Shown: piece by piece, positions 8,390 to 39,432 of the stretch
Position numbering within the stretch: the stretch's first letter is position 1
Layout: every line of letters begins with the position of its first letter
Source of the DNA: Candidatus Cacconaster equi
GTDB taxonomy: Bacteria; Bacteroidota; Bacteroidia; Bacteroidales; UBA932
DNA: 41,218 nucleotides
Assembly (NCBI GenBank): GCA_018065895.1
Contig: JAGHSK010000048.1
Location: forward strand, 1-41,218
Direction: 5' to 3'
The notes under the pieces: generated by a model
The model's database searches: none
What the model saw: the letters and a program-made list of their open reading frames with translations, nothing else
What the model was told of the DNA's origin: nothing
Translations under genes and position numbers: made by a program

Positions 8390-9286
8390 CTATCTTTTGG
8401 GGTGAAATTTTAAAATATTTTTTTGCCATTTCTCCGAGTCTATATGTGTGTATATTTCGGTTGTAAGAATGCTTTCGTGTCCGAGCATCTGTTGCACAAC
8501 GCGCAGGTCAGCTCCATTCTCAACCAGGTGCGTTGCGAAGCTGTGTCGGAATGTGTGGGGAGAGATTTCTTTTGTTATGCCGGCGGCAGCGGCATATTTC
8601 CTGACAATGTTGAAGACCGCAACTCTTGACATGCTGCCTCCGCGGCTGTTCAGAAAAAGAATATCTTCGGATTTTCGCTCGATTTTGTGGAAAGGCCTTC
8701 CTGCAAGGTACAACTCCATAGCTTTGAGAGCAGGCTCTCCGACGGGGACCAGCCTTTGTTTGCTTCCTTTTCCGAACACCTTCAGGAAGCCCTCTTTCAG
8801 GAATATGTCAGATATCTTGAGGTTGCACAATTCGCTTACGCGCAGTCCGCACGAATAGAGAATTTCCAGGATGCATCTGTCGCGATGTCCCTCTTTCTGC
8901 GAAAGGTCCACGGCATTGAGAATTGCAAGGACCTCATCGACCGAGAGCACGGTAGGGAGATATGGCTGAATTCTGGGAGTGTCGATCTTGTCGCAGGGAT
9001 TGTTCTGGAATTTCCCCTCCGCCTCCAGGTATTTGTAAAGCGATTTGATGGAACTGGTAATTCTGGCCTGCGTGCGTTTCGAAATTCTGTCGCCTGAGGC
9101 GAGATTTATGATGAACCCCGAAATGTCTTCCGGAGAGGCGTCGGCAGGAGCAGTCCTCCTGTTCTTGAGGTAATCCAGGAATTTTTCCACGTCCGAGCAG
9201 TAGCTGCTGACGGTGTTGGCGGAAAGACCCCGCTCAAGCTTCAGGTAGCTTTTGAACTCCTGGAATGTTTCTTCGTAAACGTTCAT
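8390..9286 (-). CDS. xerD: Tyrosine recombinase XerD
   Basis: The product has 298 residues, the normal length. An N-terminal SAM-like core-binding domain (about 1-90) precedes the catalytic domain with R149 ('CGLRVSEL'), the K174 region, H244 and R247 ('HTFRHSFATHL'), H270 ('MLGHESI') and nucleophile Y279 ('TEIYTHI'). It resolves chromosome dimers at dif together with a partner recombinase and FtsK. It is encoded beside DNA-repair and division genes, with no integrase-type attachment features or cargo around it, so a housekeeping Xer is more likely than a phage integrase. Its start overlaps the end of nth by 53 bases, implying co-transcription. XerC versus XerD cannot be settled without an alignment. 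Confidence 0.9.
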   Translation of the reverse strand: MNVYEETFQEFKSYLKLERGLSANTVSSYCSDVEKFLDYLKNRRTAPADASPEDISGFIINLASGDRISKRTQARITSSIKSLYKYLEAEGKFQNNPCDKIDTPRIQPYLPTVLSVDEVLAILNAVDLSQKEGHRDRCILEILYSCGLRVSELCNLKISDIFLKEGFLKVFGKGSKQRLVPVGEPALKAMELYLAGRPFHKIERKSEDILFLNSRGGSMSRVAVFNIVRKYAAAAGITKEISPHTFRHSFATHLVENGADLRVVQQMLGHESILTTEIYTHIDSEKWQKNILKFHPKR

Positions 9287-9899
9287 GATATGCGCAGGAT
9301 TCGCTTATGCCGCACGTTTCGCATTTCGGTTTTCTGGCTGTGCAGACATATCGGCCGTGCAGAATGAGCCAGTGATGCGCTATCGGGCGTATGGATTTGT
9401 CAATGTGCTTTTCAAGGTCAAGCTCGACTGCAAGGGGCGTTTTCCCTTTTGAAAGGCCAAGCCTGCGGGCAACACGGAAAACGTGGGTGTCAACGGCAAT
9501 GACAGGTTCGTTGTTGACGATTGAGGCTACCACGTTGGCGGTTTTGCGTCCGACTCCGGGCAGTTTGACGAGAAGTTCGGAACTGTGGGGAATCTGTCCG
9601 TTGAAATCCGATAAGACCATCCGTGCCATCTCGCTCAAATGGCGCGCCTTGCTGTTTGGATATGATATCGAGTGGATGAAGGAGAGAATTTCCTCCGGAG
9701 CTGCGGCTGCAAGGTCTTCTATTGAAGGATATTTTTCAAACAGAGCCGGAGTGACCATATTCACCCGCTTGTCCGTGCATTGGGCCGAGAGCATTACGGC
9801 CACGATGAGCTGATATGGCGAATTGAAGTTCAGCTCGCTCTGAGCAACCGGCATGTTCTCCTTGAACCAGGAAATTATCTTATCGTAGCGCTTGCTCAT
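9234..9899 (-). CDS. nth: Endonuclease III (base-excision DNA glycosylase/AP lyase)
   Basis: The product has 221 residues. The helix-hairpin-helix 'LPGVGRKTANVV' carries catalytic K119, and D137 follows in 'AVDTHVFRVARRLGL'. The [4Fe-4S] cluster loop has Cys 186, 193, 196 and 202 (C-x6-C-x2-C-x5-C). It removes oxidised pyrimidines and cleaves at abasic sites. Its ATG overlaps the ftsE stop (ATGA) and its 3' end overlaps xerD by 53 bases, so ftsE-nth-xerD read as one unit. Confidence 0.97.
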   Translation of the reverse strand: MSKRYDKIISWFKENMPVAQSELNFNSPYQLIVAVMLSAQCTDKRVNMVTPALFEKYPSIEDLAAAAPEEILSFIHSISYPNSKARHLSEMARMVLSDFNGQIPHSSELLVKLPGVGRKTANVVASIVNNEPVIAVDTHVFRVARRLGLSKGKTPLAVELDLEKHIDKSIRPIAHHWLILHGRYVCTARKPKCETCGISESCAYHERLRRNIPGVQKLPEA

Positions 9900-32750: not shown

Positions 32751-33878
32751 ATGGAAAAGTCTAAAGTTTATTTTACGGATTTTCACACCGTTGCGTATGG
32801 TGACGGTACTGCTGTGAAGTTAAAGAACCTGATAAAGGCGGCAGGAATCGGAAACATTGATATGGATGGCAAATTCGTGGCCATCAAGATGCACTTCGGA
32901 GAGCAGGGTAATTTGAGCTTTCTCCGTCCCAATTATGCAAGAGCCGTCGTTGATGTGGTGAAGGAACTGGGCGGCAAGCCATTTCTGACAGATTGCAACA
33001 CGATGTATCCGGGAAGCAGGAAGAATGCTCTCGAACATCTCTATTGCGCTTGGGAAAACGGATTCACTCCTCTTACCGTAGGCTGCCCTGTCATTATCGG
33101 TGACGGTCTGAAAGGAACCGATGATGTGGCTGTTCCTGTAAAAGGTGGAGAATATGTGAAGGAGGCCCTTATCGGACGTGCTGTGATGGATGCTGACATC
33201 ATCATCAGCCTGACTCATTTCAAGGGACACGAGGAGACGGGATTCGGAGGCTGCCTGAAGAATCTCGGAATGGGATGCGGATCGCGCGCAGGCAAGAAAG
33301 ACCAGCACAGCCACGGCAAGGCGAAGATAAATGAAGACAAGTGCAAAGGGTGCCGCAAGTGCCAGAAAGAGTGTGCGAACGGAGGCCTTGTTTTTCTTGA
33401 GGACAAGAAGAAAATGTCTGTCAGTCCATCTTGTATGGGATGCGGCAGATGTCTTGGGGCTTGCAACTTCGATGCGATATATTTTGCAGAGTACAATGCA
33501 AACGAAATGCTTTGCCGCAGGATAGCCGAATATACCAAGGCTGTGATAGACGGCAGACCGTCGTTCCATATCTCCCTCGTTCTGGATGTCTCACCGAACT
33601 GTGACTGCCATTCTGAGAACGACGTGCCGATCCTGCCGGATCTCGGTATGTTCGCCTCATTCGATCCGCTGGCCTTGGACTGGGCTTGTGTGGACGCCTG
33701 CCTTGCCGCATCACCTCTTCCAGGAGGACAACTGTATAACAATATCCATAAGGATGGCTTTGTGGATCTTCACGACCACTTCAAGAATTCGACACCGGAG
33801 AGCGAGTGGCGGGCTTGCCTGGAACAGGCGGAGAAGATAGGACTGGGTTCGAGGGAATATGAGCTGATCAAGCTCTAA
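32751..33878 (+). CDS. DUF362 protein with two [4Fe-4S] ferredoxin motifs
   Basis: The product has 375 residues and starts eight bases after hisIE. The DUF362 domain (about 1-180, resuming about 260-375) shows 'VAIKMHFGEQGNLSFLRP', 'FLTDCNTMYPGSR', 'SLTHFKGHEETGFGGCLKNLGMG' and 'FDPLALDWACVDACL'. The inserted bacterial ferredoxin segment has Cys 198/201/204/208 and 228/231/234/238, each in the CxxCxxCxxxC pattern of a [4Fe-4S] cluster. No signal peptide is visible, so it is probably cytoplasmic. The function of these proteins is not established; a redox or electron-transfer role is inferred. Position makes co-transcription with the his genes likely. Its stop overlaps the convergent MATE stop. 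Confidence 0.88.
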   Translation: MEKSKVYFTDFHTVAYGDGTAVKLKNLIKAAGIGNIDMDGKFVAIKMHFGEQGNLSFLRPNYARAVVDVVKELGGKPFLTDCNTMYPGSRKNALEHLYCAWENGFTPLTVGCPVIIGDGLKGTDDVAVPVKGGEYVKEALIGRAVMDADIIISLTHFKGHEETGFGGCLKNLGMGCGSRAGKKDQHSHGKAKINEDKCKGCRKCQKECANGGLVFLEDKKKMSVSPSCMGCGRCLGACNFDAIYFAEYNANEMLCRRIAEYTKAVIDGRPSFHISLVLDVSPNCDCHSENDVPILPDLGMFASFDPLALDWACVDACLAASPLPGGQLYNNIHKDGFVDLHDHFKNSTPESEWRACLEQAEKIGLGSREYELIKL

Positions 33879-35659
33879 GCCTTTTTGCCGTCATTTTTGA
33901 CGAATGACATGTAGATGGTGTTCTGGCCGTACATATAGTTATAGGTCAGTTCTTTGCACATCTGATTGACGATTCTCAGCGAAAGGTCCGGATCCTCTCC
34001 GGACTCAAAAGCTTCGGCTGCGCTCTTTGTGTATTTACGTACGGGGTTGAAAGGGAATCCGGCATCCTTTACCGTGACTTTCACTTCATTCTCATCATCA
34101 AGGACGGAGATATCGAAAAAATATCCTTCGCCCTTGTTTTCTGCGTTGTTCTGAATGATGCTGAGCATTATTTCCTCGCAGCATAGATTTACACCAGAGC
34201 AAAGGACAGGTGACATTTCACAGGATTCCAGAAAGCTGGAAAGTTCCCGGATTGCATTGTCCATACCGGCTTGATTGTAAGGAATGGAGATATATTTCGA
34301 CTTTACGTCGTCCTGATGCGGAATCAGGAGATATCTTGAGAGGTCCTTTCTTCTCAGTGTGATAATCCGGCAAATGATGAAATCCGCAATGATGAAGGTG
34401 GCTCCGGCAAGGGGAAGGGCAAGGTACATTCTGGCAGGATCCGCCCAGACGAATATGCAGAGAGCCGCAATGTCAAGTGTGAGCAGCACCATAAGGGACA
34501 GGACTGATGAAAAACTCCTGTCCAAAGCTTGCGAGAGATATACCTTTATGCAGCATACTGCGTATGGAATACACGAAATGGCGATGCAGCGTATCCATGT
34601 GTCGGCATTCTCTACTGATTCAACTTCTTTATCACCAAAAATGGAGAGGATGAAGTGAGGGAAGACAAGCACAATCAGCACCAATCCTCCGACGACCAAT
34701 GCAGTAACTGTCATGCATTTTTTGGTAAGTATCTTCAAACCGTCCATGTCGTGACAGCCGACAAGCATACTGCCCATTATTACGAGGATTGTGCCGCCTA
34801 TGCAGCTCATGGCCATTATGACAATCGAGAATACCTGATAACCGGTACTCCAGACATATAGTATTTCGTTACCGAGATTGTTTAGAATCAGAGTGTTTGC
34901 AATGAACGTTATCAGACAGCTGACAGCATATGGCAGGCAGTACGGTATTCCGAACTTGATGTTCTGTGACAGCAGTTCCGTGGTATCCTCACCTGCCCAT
35001 ATATACCTGAACGAACATTTGTGGTTTATGTACGGGATAAGTATTACGAGTGGCAGGATGTATGAGGCGATGGTCGCGATCCCAAGCCCTTTGACGCCCA
35101 TTCCGAGATACCCCATCAACAGCAGGTCAAGAAGCAGATCAAGCACGCATGCCGCCAGCATCGTGACAAGGGAGAATTGAGGCTTTCCGTCGATGTTGAG
35201 AATCAAAGTCGTCTGGAAGAACAGGCAGATTGGAACCAGACCTGTGAAATAAACTTTCAGATAGTCGGTGAGGTATTGCGTGAGTGACGGATCAGAGCAT
35301 AGAACCCTGACTATCGGATCCAGGGATGCAAGGCAGATTATGGATGCTGCAGCCGCCACGGCTGTCGACAGTATCGTTGATGCGGTCAGCGCCTTGTATG
35401 CACGATTGAAATCCTGGTCGCCTATCAGCCGTGATGCGATGATGCCGGCTCCGCCTGTGAACAGCATCAGAAAACCGGTTGCCAGATTTTCAACTGGAAT
35501 CACCAGATTGAGGGCTGCAAAGGCATCCGGGCCGACGAAATTGCCGACCAGAATCATATCAACCGTGGCGCATAACTGCTCTGCCACGGAAAAAAGGATG
35601 GAAAAGATAAAATAGTTCCGGAATCCTCGCGATATTATGAATGAATTGCGTGTCGCCAT
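33875..35659 (-). CDS. MATE-family transporter fused to an RsbW-like ATPase domain
   Basis: The product has 594 residues. Residues about 1-435 form a twelve-helix MATE transporter: 'QLCATVDMILVGNFVGPDAFAALNLVIP', 'FLMLFTGGAGIIASRLIGDQ' and 'LLLDLLLMGYLGMGVKGLGIATIAS'. Residues about 455-594 are a HATPase_c_2 (RsbW/SpoIIAB-type) domain with N-box 'CCEEIMLSIIQNN' (about 494-506) and G1 box 'VKDAGFPFNP' (Asp about 532). The G2 box is degenerate: 'DPDLSLRIVNQM' replaces the usual GLGL pattern. MATE proteins export drugs or metabolites by Na+ or H+ antiport; RsbW-type domains phosphorylate STAS proteins or bind regulators. The fusion suggests control of transport by a phosphorylation switch. It is three bases downstream of the FliB-like gene and divergent from a PP2C phosphatase. 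Confidence 0.88.
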   Translation of the reverse strand: MATRNSFIISRGFRNYFIFSILFSVAEQLCATVDMILVGNFVGPDAFAALNLVIPVENLATGFLMLFTGGAGIIASRLIGDQDFNRAYKALTASTILSTAVAAAASIICLASLDPIVRVLCSDPSLTQYLTDYLKVYFTGLVPICLFFQTTLILNIDGKPQFSLVTMLAACVLDLLLDLLLMGYLGMGVKGLGIATIASYILPLVILIPYINHKCSFRYIWAGEDTTELLSQNIKFGIPYCLPYAVSCLITFIANTLILNNLGNEILYVWSTGYQVFSIVIMAMSCIGGTILVIMGSMLVGCHDMDGLKILTKKCMTVTALVVGGLVLIVLVFPHFILSIFGDKEVESVENADTWIRCIAISCIPYAVCCIKVYLSQALDRSFSSVLSLMVLLTLDIAALCIFVWADPARMYLALPLAGATFIIADFIICRIITLRRKDLSRYLLIPHQDDVKSKYISIPYNQAGMDNAIRELSSFLESCEMSPVLCSGVNLCCEEIMLSIIQNNAENKGEGYFFDISVLDDENEVKVTVKDAGFPFNPVRKYTKSAAEAFESGEDPDLSLRIVNQMCKELTYNYMYGQNTIYMSFVKNDGKKA

Positions 35660-35662
35660 CCG

Positions 35663-36505
35663 TCAATGCCGGTTTATGTCACCGTATCTTTCTTCGTGTT
35701 CCATTATGAAGCCAAGTTTGATGGAACGGTCCAGCAGATGCCTTGAGAACTCCACACACATATCCCACCAGCTGTCATATTTTTTTTGTCCGTAGATATC
35801 AATGTAAGACAGATCCACGCTGATGATGAACTCCATAAGATTCTCCACCTCAGGAACTCCGTCATACTGCATCAAATAGGCCCAGACCATCAGCGCCGTC
35901 TCTTTTCTGATGAATTCAGTTCTCTCATGGTCCAATGTGAATTCGGGAATCTCCTTCCCGCACTTATACAGGTCGTTGAGCGCAATCAGGCAGTCGCGCA
36001 GTGAAATGCTGCGGTCAGATAGAATCTGCATTGCCTTGTCTCTTCTGACGGTGGTCTGATCAATGCTCCCGCTCTTTTCTCCAACAATCAGGATTGTTCC
36101 CACATCCCACTCCTTTACGGAGGCGGCCGCTACGGGGCAACAAGGCTCCAAAGCATATTCAATCCTGTCGTCAAGGGTGGTGATCAGCCTCGGATATGTC
36201 CTGCAAAGACAGGGCAGGTTGCCGGAATCCGGCCCGTGCTTCAATTGTATTTCACATAGACGCCTGTCGTTGAGAAATATGCAGTTCCCGTTCTTTTGCT
36301 GCTTGATGAAAAAACCGATGTCATCCTTGTCAAGGTATTCGGCGATTCCGTTGCCTTTTTTGTCTATGTTGCGCCATACCTCATTCTCTTCAAACTGGCT
36401 CTCCTCTCTCTTGAAAAAGTAGATACGGAAGAAGCAGCATCCTATCGGGCATTTGTCCGCTATGCACTTGAATTTTCCGTATGGGGGATAGAACGCCTTA
36501 TACAT
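35663..36505 (-). CDS. Cysteine-rich FliB-like (lysine-N-methylase-like) protein
   Basis: The product has 280 residues from ATG 36505. An ATG three codons upstream overlaps the predicted -7 element, so it is less likely. Cysteines cluster at 14, 19, 23, 24, 75, 84, 99, 101, 122 and 123: 'FKCIADKCPIGCCFFRIYF', 'GNCIFLNDRRLCEIQLKHG' and 'LPCLCRTYPRLI'. This pattern matches the N-terminal cysteine signature of the FliB/flagellin lysine-N-methylase family and related YkgJ-like metal-cluster proteins. The remainder is helical and unrecognised. No flagellar gene is seen and Bacteroidales generally lack flagella, so a different substrate is expected. It is co-transcribed with the MATE-ATPase gene. 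Confidence 0.72.
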   Translation of the reverse strand: MYKAFYPPYGKFKCIADKCPIGCCFFRIYFFKREESQFEENEVWRNIDKKGNGIAEYLDKDDIGFFIKQQKNGNCIFLNDRRLCEIQLKHGPDSGNLPCLCRTYPRLITTLDDRIEYALEPCCPVAAASVKEWDVGTILIVGEKSGSIDQTTVRRDKAMQILSDRSISLRDCLIALNDLYKCGKEIPEFTLDHERTEFIRKETALMVWAYLMQYDGVPEVENLMEFIISVDLSYIDIYGQKKYDSWWDMCVEFSRHLLDRSIKLGFIMEHEERYGDINRH

Positions 36506-36511
36506 AATATG

Positions 36512-36519
36512 CAAAAATA
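36512..36519 (-). promoter_or_regulatory. -7 promoter element for the FliB-like/MATE unit
   Basis: TATTTTTG on the minus strand is a perfect TAnnTTTG. It ends only seven bases before the ATG at 36505, so the transcript would be leaderless or nearly so. Confidence 0.5.
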
Positions 36520-36542
36520 CCTAATATTTGGCAATTAATACC

Positions 36543-36550
36543 TATATTTG
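36543..36550 (+). promoter_or_regulatory. -7 promoter element for the PP2C unit
   Basis: TATATTTG is a perfect TAnnTTTG, 19 bases before the ATG at 36569. It overlaps an upstream in-frame ATG at 36548, which argues against that start. It is about 24 bases from the divergent element at 36512-36519. Confidence 0.55.
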
Positions 36551-36568
36551 AAGATTCTTACAAGTATA

Positions 36569-38539
36569 ATGGAAAAAAGACATTCATTCGCTTCAAGACT
36601 CAGTTTGAAGACCGTGTTGCTGGCTACAGCTCTGTTCCTGGCGTCTATCAGCGTAATTGGCATCGGTGGGGGACGTATAGTTGAAAACTCTTCGCTTCAA
36701 TATGCCGGACAGTGCCTTTCTTCAACTGTACTGGATATGCAGTCCATCATATCTGAAACGGAAACTGTGGCAGATGCCGTGGCAATGACGGCGGAAGAGC
36801 ACTTCCAGGCAGGCCAGATGATGGATACGTCCAGATGTTACAGCCTCCTGAGCAGGACCTTGCAGAATAATCCCGATCTTTATGGATGCGGCTTCTTTTT
36901 CGCTCCGTATGCCTACGACAAGTCAAACGCCCACATAGGCATTTACGTCAACAATGACTGGGAGCACGGAGGCTATGTATATGAATGTGACACGGACGAA
37001 TCAACCGCCGTGGACGGCTGGGACTATTTTGATAATGATTTCTACACTCTCACTCGGAAATCCGGCAAGCGGTTATGGCTTACTCCTTATCTTGAGGAGG
37101 TGATGACCAACAACGGAGTCAACACGTTCCGTCTGCTTTCGACTTACGTCTATCCCATGCATGGCTCCAAGGGGGAATTCATAGGAGTATATGCCGTTGA
37201 CCTGCAGTTGGACTGGCTTAATGAAAAGCTGATAAAGATGCGACCATACGAGCATTCGAACGTATTCCTTCTCGACAGTTGTCTTAACATAATATGCAAT
37301 CCTCTCGCTCAGGATCCGTATAATGGGTCAATCTATGATACTCCTTTCATCGAGGGATTCGATTATATAGTGGATTCCACCTTAACGTTTGCTTCCGTCT
37401 CAAAGATGGCTGACGAAGACGGCTTCTTGAGAATAAAGGAAGGATTGAAATCTGCATATCTTGTATTTGACAAAATGGAAAACGGCTGGATAGTATGCGT
37501 AAGCTCCACATCCAACGATGTTTTTGCCGACTTGAAGAAATTGTGGCTGATACTGGTTGTCCTGACCGTAGTGGTGCTTGCTGTATTGTTCTTCCTGAAC
37601 AAGAGAATGATACGTCATCTCTCACAACCTGTCATGCAGTTTGCCAATGCAGCCAGGGAAATTACCGAGGTTAAGTTCACAGAACCGGTGGCAATTCCGG
37701 AGGTCCATACGAACGATGAGCTTGAGGAACTCGGAAATGCACTGAATTTCATGCAGGATTCCGCGATACAGTACATCAGCGATCTGACCACTACCACCAA
37801 GGAAAAGGAGCGCCTGAAGAGTGAACTCGACGTCGCCCGGAACATTCAGAATCAGATGCTCTGCAGGAATTTCCCGACAATGGACAAAGGAGGGATATTC
37901 GCTGACAGTATTCCAGCAAAAGAGGTTGGTGGTGACCTGTATGATTTTTTCATCAACAATAAGGATATCTATTTCATTCTTGGAGACGTGTCAGGGAAAG
38001 GCGTTCCTGCAGCGTTGCTTATGGCCATCACCATAGCGGCATTCCGCTCTGTTGGAAAGCGGAACCATACGATGGGACAGATTGTCACAATGATCAACAA
38101 GACCTACTGCAAGAGCAATGAGGATATGATGTTCGTCACACTTGTTGTCGGCAAGATAGATACGGAGACCGGCAGGATGGAGTACTGCAATGCGGGACAC
38201 AATCCTATGGTGATTGTTGATGCTGAAGGTAAATCCAGATTCATAAATGCAAAAAGGAACCTGGCCTGCGGAGTGATGTCGGATTTTGAATATGAGAGCG
38301 AAGAGATTGTCCTGAGACAAGGATCCCGTCTGGTGGTTTACAGCGATGGAATTACTGAAGCGGAGAATCTGACCAAAGCCCAATATGGTGAGCAGCGGCT
38401 TCTTGAGTGGGCTTCCACCGCAACCGCTGAAGCCCTGAAAGATGCCGGAGCGGTAAGCAGTCTTATTTCGTCTGTACGTGAATTTACTGCCGGAGCTGAG
38501 CAGAACGACGATATGACAGTAATGTCAATCTCAATATAA
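36569..38539 (+). CDS. Membrane sensor PP2C/SpoIIE-type serine phosphatase
   Basis: The product has 656 residues. TM1 (about 14-33) precedes an extracytoplasmic Cache-like sensor (about 35-322) with 'YGCGFFFAPYAYD', 'YDYF'-type and 'GKRLWLTPYLEE' and 'GEFIGVYAVDLQLDWL' segments. TM2 (about 325-344) is followed by HAMP (about 345-405), a short coiled coil 'KEKERLKSELDVARNIQNQML', and the PP2C domain (about 440-656). The metal-binding residues are intact: D456 in 'EVGGDLYDF', 'LGDVSGKG' (471-478), 'YSDGITEAEN' and the final 'QNDDMTVMSI'. It should dephosphorylate a Ser/Thr-phosphorylated protein, typically a STAS-domain antagonist, in response to an external signal. It is directly followed by the ligand-binding protein and divergent from the MATE-ATPase unit. 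Confidence 0.92.
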   Translation: MEKRHSFASRLSLKTVLLATALFLASISVIGIGGGRIVENSSLQYAGQCLSSTVLDMQSIISETETVADAVAMTAEEHFQAGQMMDTSRCYSLLSRTLQNNPDLYGCGFFFAPYAYDKSNAHIGIYVNNDWEHGGYVYECDTDESTAVDGWDYFDNDFYTLTRKSGKRLWLTPYLEEVMTNNGVNTFRLLSTYVYPMHGSKGEFIGVYAVDLQLDWLNEKLIKMRPYEHSNVFLLDSCLNIICNPLAQDPYNGSIYDTPFIEGFDYIVDSTLTFASVSKMADEDGFLRIKEGLKSAYLVFDKMENGWIVCVSSTSNDVFADLKKLWLILVVLTVVVLAVLFFLNKRMIRHLSQPVMQFANAAREITEVKFTEPVAIPEVHTNDELEELGNALNFMQDSAIQYISDLTTTTKEKERLKSELDVARNIQNQMLCRNFPTMDKGGIFADSIPAKEVGGDLYDFFINNKDIYFILGDVSGKGVPAALLMAITIAAFRSVGKRNHTMGQIVTMINKTYCKSNEDMMFVTLVVGKIDTETGRMEYCNAGHNPMVIVDAEGKSRFINAKRNLACGVMSDFEYESEEIVLRQGSRLVVYSDGITEAENLTKAQYGEQRLLEWASTATAEALKDAGAVSSLISSVREFTAGAEQNDDMTVMSISI

Positions 38540-39376
38540 ATGAAAAAGAGCGACATATTCAGGATCGCTACTTTGAAAGGCCCTTCTTCGATGGCGATGG
38601 CGCATCTGCCGGATTGTCTTGAAAGGAGAGGCGGTGTTTGTGTGGATATTTCATCCTTTGACGAGCCCGTGAAACTTCGTGCCCAGCTGATGGCCGGGGA
38701 TGTGGATTTTGCAGTCCTTCCCACGACTATGTCCGCTTTGCTTTACAATAATGGAATTGATTACAGGATTGCTGCGGTGATAGTGTGGGGCAGCCTTTTC
38801 CTGTGTGGAAACGATGTTGAGGTAAGGACCTTCCGCGACCTGAAGGGAAGGCGGGTATCATTGATGGCAGCGGGCACACCTCCAGACTTGACATTCAGGC
38901 ATTTGATGAAAAGGAACGGACTTCCGCCAGAAGACGTTGCGTTGGATTATAGCTTTTCCGGTCACACCGGCCTGGCTGATGCTGCAGGTGACGGGTTGAC
39001 GGATTTCTGTGTGCTTGCGGAGCCATATATCTCACAGGTTACTGCCCGCAATAAAGCGATGCTTCCCCTTCTGGACTTGAGCCTGGAATGGAACAGGGTC
39101 GAAGGTATGATGCCGGCGGAGACGGCTTTTTTGTGCAGGGGCGATCTTGCCGTGAAGTTTCCTTCCGCTGTAGTTGAAATGGTCAAGGCATTGAAAGAAT
39201 CGGCTTGCGAAGAATTGCGTGCTCCTGAAGGCGGAGTGAACGCTGACCACCTGCATTTCGACGTAGCCTCCGGAGAAGATGCTGGAGAGAGAATTTTTTC
39301 GTATTTGAAAATATTCCACGAAGAGTTTCCTGCGGCCATAGGTGGAAGACTGCCTGACGGAGATTTTGTATTATGA
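38540..39376 (+). CDS. NMT1/SsuA-like ligand-binding protein without signal peptide
   Basis: The product has 278 residues; its ATG follows the PP2C stop with no gap. It resembles the periplasmic-binding fold of NMT1/THI5/SsuA proteins: 'FRIATLKGPSSMAMAHL' at the start, 'RAQLMAGDVDFAVLPTTMSALLYNNG', 'FRDLKGRRVSLMAAGTPPDLTFRHLMKRNGL' and 'DFCVLAEPYISQV'. There is no signal peptide or lipobox, so as predicted it stays in the cytoplasm. No ABC permease or ATPase gene follows, only a 19-codon frame. It may be a cytoplasmic ligand sensor for the phosphatase/kinase module, or the remnant of an ABC operon. The exact ligand is unknown. Confidence 0.75.
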   Translation: MKKSDIFRIATLKGPSSMAMAHLPDCLERRGGVCVDISSFDEPVKLRAQLMAGDVDFAVLPTTMSALLYNNGIDYRIAAVIVWGSLFLCGNDVEVRTFRDLKGRRVSLMAAGTPPDLTFRHLMKRNGLPPEDVALDYSFSGHTGLADAAGDGLTDFCVLAEPYISQVTARNKAMLPLLDLSLEWNRVEGMMPAETAFLCRGDLAVKFPSAVVEMVKALKESACEELRAPEGGVNADHLHFDVASGEDAGERIFSYLKIFHEEFPAAIGGRLPDGDFVL

Positions 39377-39432
39377 TGAACGGACGCCCGACAGTCCGCA
39401 AAAAAGTCAAGATGGTCAAGGACAATGACTGA
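39373..39432 (+). CDS. 19-codon micro-ORF (MMNGRPTVRKKVKMVKDND)
   Basis: The ATG overlaps the stop of the ligand-binding gene (ATGA), the coupling used by genuine neighbours in this window. The product is very basic and has no recognised family. It could be a small regulatory peptide or the stub of a lost gene, for example a transporter permease that would normally follow a binding protein. It ends six bases before the convergent hydrolase stop. Confidence 0.3.
   Translation: MMNGRPTVRKKVKMVKDND

Follow-up and report, generated by a model that had tools for sequence, protein, structure and literature searches.

A divergent Cache-PP2C phosphatase and MATE fusion in a Bacteroidales genome: a possible transporter output of partner switching

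Partner switching is known mainly as a way of controlling sigma factors, with a few enzyme outputs. A locus in Candidatus Cacconaster equi raises the question of whether a transporter could be such an output. The window, by which we mean the whole 41,218-nucleotide stretch that was analysed (contig JAGHSK010000048.1 of assembly GCA_018065895.1), lies on contig 36 of a draft metagenome-assembled genome (MAG) of 1.65 Mb and 84% completeness, probably of gut origin. It encodes a MATE transporter with an RsbW-like C-terminal domain, divergently from a Cache-HAMP-PP2C phosphatase. Our preferred reading, at a probability of roughly 0.4, is that this locus is the transporter-output arm of a partner-switching network, in which a non-catalytic RsbW-like tail would let a STAS protein control the transporter directly. 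The observations behind this reading are the parts themselves, the erosion of the nucleotide site in the tail and the neighbourhood of the fusion in some relatives, together with a predicted RsbW fold of the tail.

The sequence-only reading had described two divergent units that leave one short intergenic region, and the open reading frames (ORFs) and their domains confirm this layout: a FliB-like/MATE operon on the minus strand and a phosphatase and NMT1-like pair on the plus strand.

33875..35659, minus strand: MATE transporter with a C-terminal RsbW-fold domain (Pfam MatE 4.7e-26; HATPase_c_2 1.4e-6)
33878..34324, minus strand: RsbW-like C-terminal domain of the MATE protein, with Ser for the N-box Asn and without the G2 glycines
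35663..36505, minus strand: FliB-like protein with CX4CX3CC (NCBIfam NF038110, Lys_methyl_FliB, 97.7 bits, cut-off 85)
36512..36519, minus strand: TAnnTTTG box 5' of the FliB/MATE operon (motif search)
36543..36550, plus strand: TAnnTTTG box 5' of the phosphatase gene (motif search)
36569..38539, plus strand: Cache-HAMP-SpoIIE (PP2C) phosphatase (Pfam SpoIIE 4.4e-49; alignment with six relatives)
38540..39376, plus strand: NMT1-like binding protein that lacks a signal peptide and an internal stretch present in ABC-type relatives (Pfam NMT1 26.2 bits)

The FliB-like and MATE genes are spaced by 3 bases on the same strand. As listed, the ORFs of the FliB-like protein (35663-36514, minus strand) and the phosphatase (36548-38539, plus strand) both have doubtful TTG starts, and ATG codons at 36505 and 36569, respectively, are the more likely starts. 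Between these ATG codons lie 63 bases with one TAnnTTTG box per strand, which we take to be the Bacteroidetes -7 promoter box.

The RsbW-like tail of the MATE transporter

What kind of domain does the MATE protein carry, and could it work as a kinase? HATPase_c_2 matches the tail at 28.8 bits (Pfam cut-off 27.4), and a structural model of the tail has the RsbW/SpoIIAB fold, with RsbV/RsbW and SpoIIAA/SpoIIAB complex structures as the best matches and a SiaB-SiaC chain also among them; compared by sequence with solved structures, the tail has no significant match (best E value 0.067). The "RsbW-like ATPase domain" of the sequence-only reading is thus borne out in its fold, but "ATPase" says too much, the nucleotide motifs being mostly gone. 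In the N-box the Glu is kept and the Asn is replaced by Ser, the D-x-G of G1 is retained, and the GGLG found at G2 in kinases reads PDLS. All seven motif residues that we checked are kept in 25/25 free-standing RsbW relatives, and the first two G2 glycines in 0/52 MATE-HATPase fusions, a table from which the composite 884-amino-acid frame of L293 was left out.

An RsbW-type kinase on the tail that opposes the phosphatase by phosphorylating a STAS protein would fit the above-threshold Pfam match, the fold and the conserved Glu and D-x-G, as well as the retention of the Glu, Asn, Asp and last G2 Gly in 25 of 38 Lachnospiraceae fusions. With the N-box Asn lost and the G2 glycines gone, however, this opposing role, which had been proposed for the tail, is unlikely, and fusion clusters L274, L283, L285, L286, L287 and L289 encode RsbW as a protein of its own in which all seven residues are intact. 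A working kinase is thus quite improbable, and to judge from its motifs the tail is probably not one. Pfam detects no histidine phospho-acceptor domain in the MATE protein at E values up to 0.1.

A non-catalytic tail could serve as a docking site. In the mechanism that we propose, RsbW would phosphorylate the STAS protein, and the Cache-PP2C phosphatase, switched by an external ligand, would strip the phosphate off again. The unphosphorylated STAS protein may then dock on the RsbW-like tail, as RsbV docks on RsbW, and once docked would alter transport by the MATE; the docking, the gating and the direction of its effect are what we infer here. The leaderless NMT1-like protein could contribute a cytosolic ligand input or be a decaying leftover, and FliB would be a passenger. 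A transport-coupled partner switch of this kind is plausible.

Parts of this scheme have counterparts in known systems. The proposal has a SpoIIE-type phosphatase, a STAS protein and an RsbW-fold partner in common with RsbU/RsbV/RsbW (SpoIIE/SpoIIAA/SpoIIAB), whereas its output would be a transporter that itself carries the RsbW-like fold, with the kinase motifs lost in the window; no sigma factor is present among the proteins run through Pfam, a set to which no search aimed at sigma-factor genes was added. In Pseudomonas aeruginosa, SiaABCD comprises the membrane PP2C SiaA, the kinase SiaB, the STAS-like SiaC and the diguanylate cyclase SiaD as output (PMC7647112). It resembles the proposal in joining a membrane PP2C to an output other than a sigma factor, and differs from the MATE fusion in having kinase and output as separate proteins (PMC7647112). 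The window phosphatase scores far below the cut-off of the SiaA equivalog NF038263 (45.8 vs 700 bits). CbrA and the SLC5-STAC transceptors are likewise transporters fused to a GHKL-fold domain, but they are described as true two-component histidine kinases, whereas the GHKL fold in the window is RsbW-like and eroded (PMC7096432, PMC13022988, PMC9100948). Finally, SulP/SLC26 proteins combine a transporter with a cytosolic partner-switching-type domain, as does the MATE fusion, but bear the STAS side where the window MATE bears the RsbW side (PMC8256260).

Neighbours of the fusion and a STAS protein elsewhere in the genome

Is there a STAS protein for the tail to bind? The sequence-only reading had advised looking for one in the flanks or elsewhere. 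None is present in the window, but contig 42 of the same genome has a locus (L032) with HD-APH, RsbW, STAS, tyrosine phosphatase, NMT1 and a second Cache-PP2C. Its STAS gene (9343-9645; C42:101357), the sole one detected in the genome, lies beside a canonical RsbW gene (8927-9316), and its Cache-PP2C is a paralogue of the window phosphatase, which is 33-38% identical to it and to the best genus relatives. The window phosphatase could act on this STAS protein in trans.

The sensor of the window phosphatase matches MCP-like_PDC_1 (1e-13), with dCache_1 below the cut-off (36 vs 45), HAMP is just recognised (25.6 bits, cut-off 25), and alignment with six relatives shows the conserved catalytic-domain stretches GGDLYDF, GDVSGKG, YSDGITEA and NDD. 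A scan of named genomes with the Cache-PP2C alignment gave, as its best 80 loci, members from Bacteroidota and several other phyla, the nearest relatives of the window phosphatase being Bacteroidales MAGs, mostly from ruminants. STAS lies within 5 kb in 49 of these 80 loci and RsbW, free or fused, in 44; NMT1 is directly upstream of Cache-PP2C in 31 and downstream in 0 (5 loci are cut on the left). In most of the genus loci L082-L101, RsbW is fused behind a domain of about 300 amino acids, upstream of Cache-PP2C and STAS; in one example (L082 7459-8778), Pfam identifies the protein as diacylglycerol-kinase-like. Xanthine/uracil permease genes lie 3' of the NMT1-PP2C-STAS cluster in L083 (11803-13263) and L090 (11884-13287), hinting at a nucleobase-like ligand, and single proteins combine STAS, APH and RsbW, or RsbW and STAS, in L310 (9024-10628) and L172 (7223-8014).

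Does the pairing of fusion and phosphatase recur? The genus of the window has 13 MATE-HATPase loci in 10 of 37 genomes, and nine aligned fusion tails are 20-33% identical to that of the window. Among the 13 loci, L041 (genome G008) has STAS and Cache-PP2C divergent from the fusion; a second MATE fusion in the window's own genome adjoins an outer-membrane beta-barrel gene. The profile that picked out locus L043 had this locus among its members. The MATE alignment offers no conserved stretch to serve as a scan pattern, and in an order-wide scan of 393 genomes one of the four long-frame candidates fetched from outside the genus was a MATE fusion (L152).

In Lachnospiraceae, the fusion profile matched in 61 of 299 genomes. 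We took all profile matches with frames of 560-660 amino acids and 12 further MATEs of 567-637 amino acids; as controls served plain MATEs from the same genomes, of which we took a selection, 27 loci from the upper part of the ranking, and 4 more that came with fetched stretches. Neighbours were counted for fusions of 540-700 and plain MATEs of 430-520 amino acids, with L311, L293 and the 566-amino-acid L334, L337 and L340 outside the count, and some loci in both sets are short contigs. The neighbour profiles were built from Bacteroidales members and then from Lachnospiraceae members found here, instead of from Pfam. PP2C, STAS or RsbW lies within 5 kb of 17/48 fusions vs 2/31 plain MATEs (one-sided Fisher p = 0.0025), and within 3 kb of 16/48 vs 1/31. 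This first count takes L273, L282 and L302 as neighbour-bearing and includes the near-copies L274 and L285. Leaving out L285 gives 15/46 vs 2/31 (p = 0.0055), and strict labels, which discount the STAS-APH fusions of L273 and L282 as well as L302, where a contig end leaves only a sensor piece, give 14/48 (p = 0.012). Counted once per locus and without L285, the figures are 12/41 vs 2/28 (p = 0.023).

In some of these relatives the MATE-HATPase fusion, STAS, Cache-PP2C and RsbW form one same-strand cluster. The orders found include STAS-MATE-GNAT-PP2C-RsbW (L287), STAS-MATE-GH3-PP2C-RsbW (L274), MATE-PP2C-RsbW (L289) and MATE-STAS-RsbW-MATE (L283). The STAS partner that had been postulated as unseen is therefore borne out in some relatives, the window version being reduced. 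Co-occurrence of MATE-HATPase and PP2C is seen in several Lachnospiraceae clusters, in the window and in L041, but is not conserved across the genus. GH3-family genes adjoin the MATE-HATPase gene in Lachnospiraceae partner-switching loci L274 (7123-8865) and L278 (5420-7180).

Several results weigh against a transporter-output arm. The window has neither a STAS nor an RsbW gene, and the genome being 84% complete, our STAS and RsbW counts are lower bounds. Cache-PP2C lies beside 2 of the 13 genus fusions (the window and L041), the other 11 being without it, in some cases where the contig ends close by. In the tree, the window fusion and that of L041 do not come out as sisters, on forks with weak support, so that the pairing may be a coincidence or have arisen twice. 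Among the Lachnospiraceae fusions, 31/48 have no PP2C, STAS or RsbW within 5 kb, and the enrichment shrinks when strict labels are combined with the omission of L285 (12/46 vs 2/31, p = 0.026) and further when each locus is also counted once (9/41 vs 2/28, p = 0.09). Loss of the N-box Asn was considered as a trait that tracks such neighbours, and the relation is suggestive only: the Asn is lost in 7/17 fusions near PP2C, STAS or RsbW and in 3/21 not near them (p = 0.078). It is absent in all of L274 (5477), L285 (7328), L286, L287 and L302, an observation made post hoc that reflects one clade (100/99).

These points bear on another explanation, namely that the adjacency is incidental: the FliB-MATE operon would be independent and perhaps acquired, and the phosphatase a stray paralogue of a conserved NMT1-PP2C-STAS-RsbW sensor of the contig 42 type. 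The rarity of PP2C beside genus fusions, the occurrence of FliB in 1/61 genomes, the 33-38% identity of the phosphatase to its contig 42 paralogue and the best genus relatives, an NMT1-like protein that is not the usual partner and the per-locus enrichment that misses significance all agree with it. It has more difficulty with the several clusters of MATE-HATPase with PP2C, STAS or RsbW in another phylum, and with the second divergent pairing in the genus (L041), which includes STAS. On balance we consider incidental adjacency rather unlikely.

The eroded domain on other transporters and enzymes

Is the eroded RsbW-like domain confined to MATE proteins? In L287, the 531-amino-acid gene beside STAS encodes a Na+:dicarboxylate symporter (SDF). 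The MATE-tail profile can be aligned to its N-terminal domain with an hhalign probability of 91.6 (E value 8.4e-7); against the free RsbW profile there is no such match (probability 5.3). With a combined profile, further SDF symporters prove to carry the domain N-terminally and amino-acid-type ABC ATPases C-terminally, and it is also found on permease-ABC fusions and AMP-binding enzymes. Examples are the following.

L287 11419-13014, minus strand: Na+:dicarboxylate symporter, N-terminal eroded domain, in a STAS/PP2C/RsbW locus
L309 9411-11015, plus strand: Na+:dicarboxylate symporter, N-terminal eroded domain, in a STAS/PP2C/RsbW locus
L339 6065-7708, plus strand: Na+:dicarboxylate symporter, N-terminal eroded domain, beside a MATE fusion
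L189 13993-15090: ABC ATPase of about 360 amino acids, C-terminal eroded domain, in a Methylovulum MAG; a STAS gene follows after 12 bases
L285 6156-7250: ABC ATPase of about 360 amino acids, C-terminal eroded domain
L104 5614-6720: ABC ATPase of about 360 amino acids, C-terminal eroded domain, in the window's genus, beside DAGK-NMT1-PP2C-RsbW-STAS
L102 4047-5174: ABC ATPase of about 360 amino acids, C-terminal eroded domain
L360, L361 and others: ABC ATPases of about 360 amino acids, C-terminal eroded domain; an RsbW gene follows in L361
L308 12713-14770 (= L352, same gene) and L356: AMP-binding (acyl-CoA-synthetase-like) enzymes, C-terminal eroded domain

The 28 non-MATE domains were assigned to a kind by frame length and domain position, which Pfam confirmed for 5/7 SDF, 6/16 ABC and all 5 long ones; left out were L306 4993 (a histidine kinase), frame 1 of L354 (PP2C and RsbW) and L339, which is under the E-value limit. 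Of the 28, 3 keep the N-box Asn, 2 keep the G1 Asp and none has the G2 GG, single columns being unsure at this divergence. For most of the ABC ATPases, the flanks of about 1.5 kb contain no STAS, PP2C or RsbW. Several of the loci were fetched via PP2C or HATPase matches, which so far biases any count of co-location for the wider class.

The eroded domain could also be a structural or ligand-sensing module of transporters, making a dimer contact or sensing a nucleotide or metabolite, and be unrelated to STAS. The many MATE fusions (31/48) and most ABC fusions that lack partner-switching genes nearby would then be expected, and part of the nucleotide site is indeed kept in some fused domains. 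However, the domain occurs on four kinds of protein, each with examples in STAS/PP2C loci (found in part via PP2C or HATPase matches, and so biased), and the RsbW fold came first in both model searches. We regard a STAS-independent module as unlikely.

Returning to control by STAS, we tentatively propose, at somewhat less than even odds, that MATE transporters, AMP-binding enzymes, Na+:dicarboxylate symporters and amino-acid-type ABC ATPases bear a widespread class of non-catalytic RsbW-like receivers. With Cache-PP2C (often with an NMT1 ligand sensor) and RsbW as its switch, a single STAS protein would control several outputs directly, without transcription, and the window MATE would be a Bacteroidales member with its STAS protein and kinase in trans. 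The more interesting finding is that the eroded RsbW domain recurs on transporters and enzymes unrelated to one another. Were these domains STAS receivers, gut bacteria could rapidly adjust solute uptake and efflux by phosphorylating a small protein, and many transporters annotated as plain MATE, SDF or ABC ATPase would be regulated outputs. An open-access search by title and abstract returned no literature on MATE- or SDF-HATPase fusions or on transporters as partner-switching outputs in this way.

The NMT1-like and FliB-like proteins and the convergent gene

Do the remaining two proteins belong to the module, as had been supposed? The domain assignment of the NMT1-like protein is above threshold (cut-off 20.5 bits), and the description of it as lacking an export signal is upheld. 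Judged by hydrophobicity only, it has no signal peptide, and as its ATG directly follows the phosphatase stop codon, in frame, none can be added upstream. A strongly hydrophobic stretch is present in the first 60 residues of 54/58 other NMT1 frames, among which two frame pairs are the same gene and the exceptions are L118 (an over-extended frame), L177, L180 and L232. About 20 residues found in aligned ABC-type relatives are missing. Its closest matches, L118-L121, share 45-48% identity with it; relatives on this branch start with signal-like stretches, and in the two that were checked for neighbours, L118 and L121, permease and ABC ATPase genes adjoin. We therefore rejected the idea that this is the usual phosphatase-linked binding protein, which is encoded upstream and has a signal; on sequence grounds, it is an ABC-transporter type that has lost its signal. 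With signal and internal stretch both gone, the protein would be a sensor in the cytosol or else a relic.

The FliB-like protein passes the NCBIfam equivalog cut-off, scores below that of Pfam CxxCxxCC (16.4 vs 23) and contains CX4CX3CC, the motif of the FliB lysine methyltransferase (PMC8598068). It differs from known FliB in its host, a Bacteroidales MAG. Among 61 genomes searched FliB was found in the window's alone, the other 60 giving no match, and the other annotated loci yielded no further FliB, and so no tie to MATE fusions; the profile used was built from one sequence and could overlook distant homologues. FliB was consequently dropped as a part of the module, and the downstream, signal-less NMT1-like protein is likewise not a conserved part, with downstream NMT1 genes in 0 of the best 80 loci.

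On the far side of the MATE gene lies one further gene.

32751-33878, plus strand: DUF362/ferredoxin gene (ORF list, Pfam)

It is convergent with the MATE gene, with an overlap of 4 bases between its end and the MATE stop.

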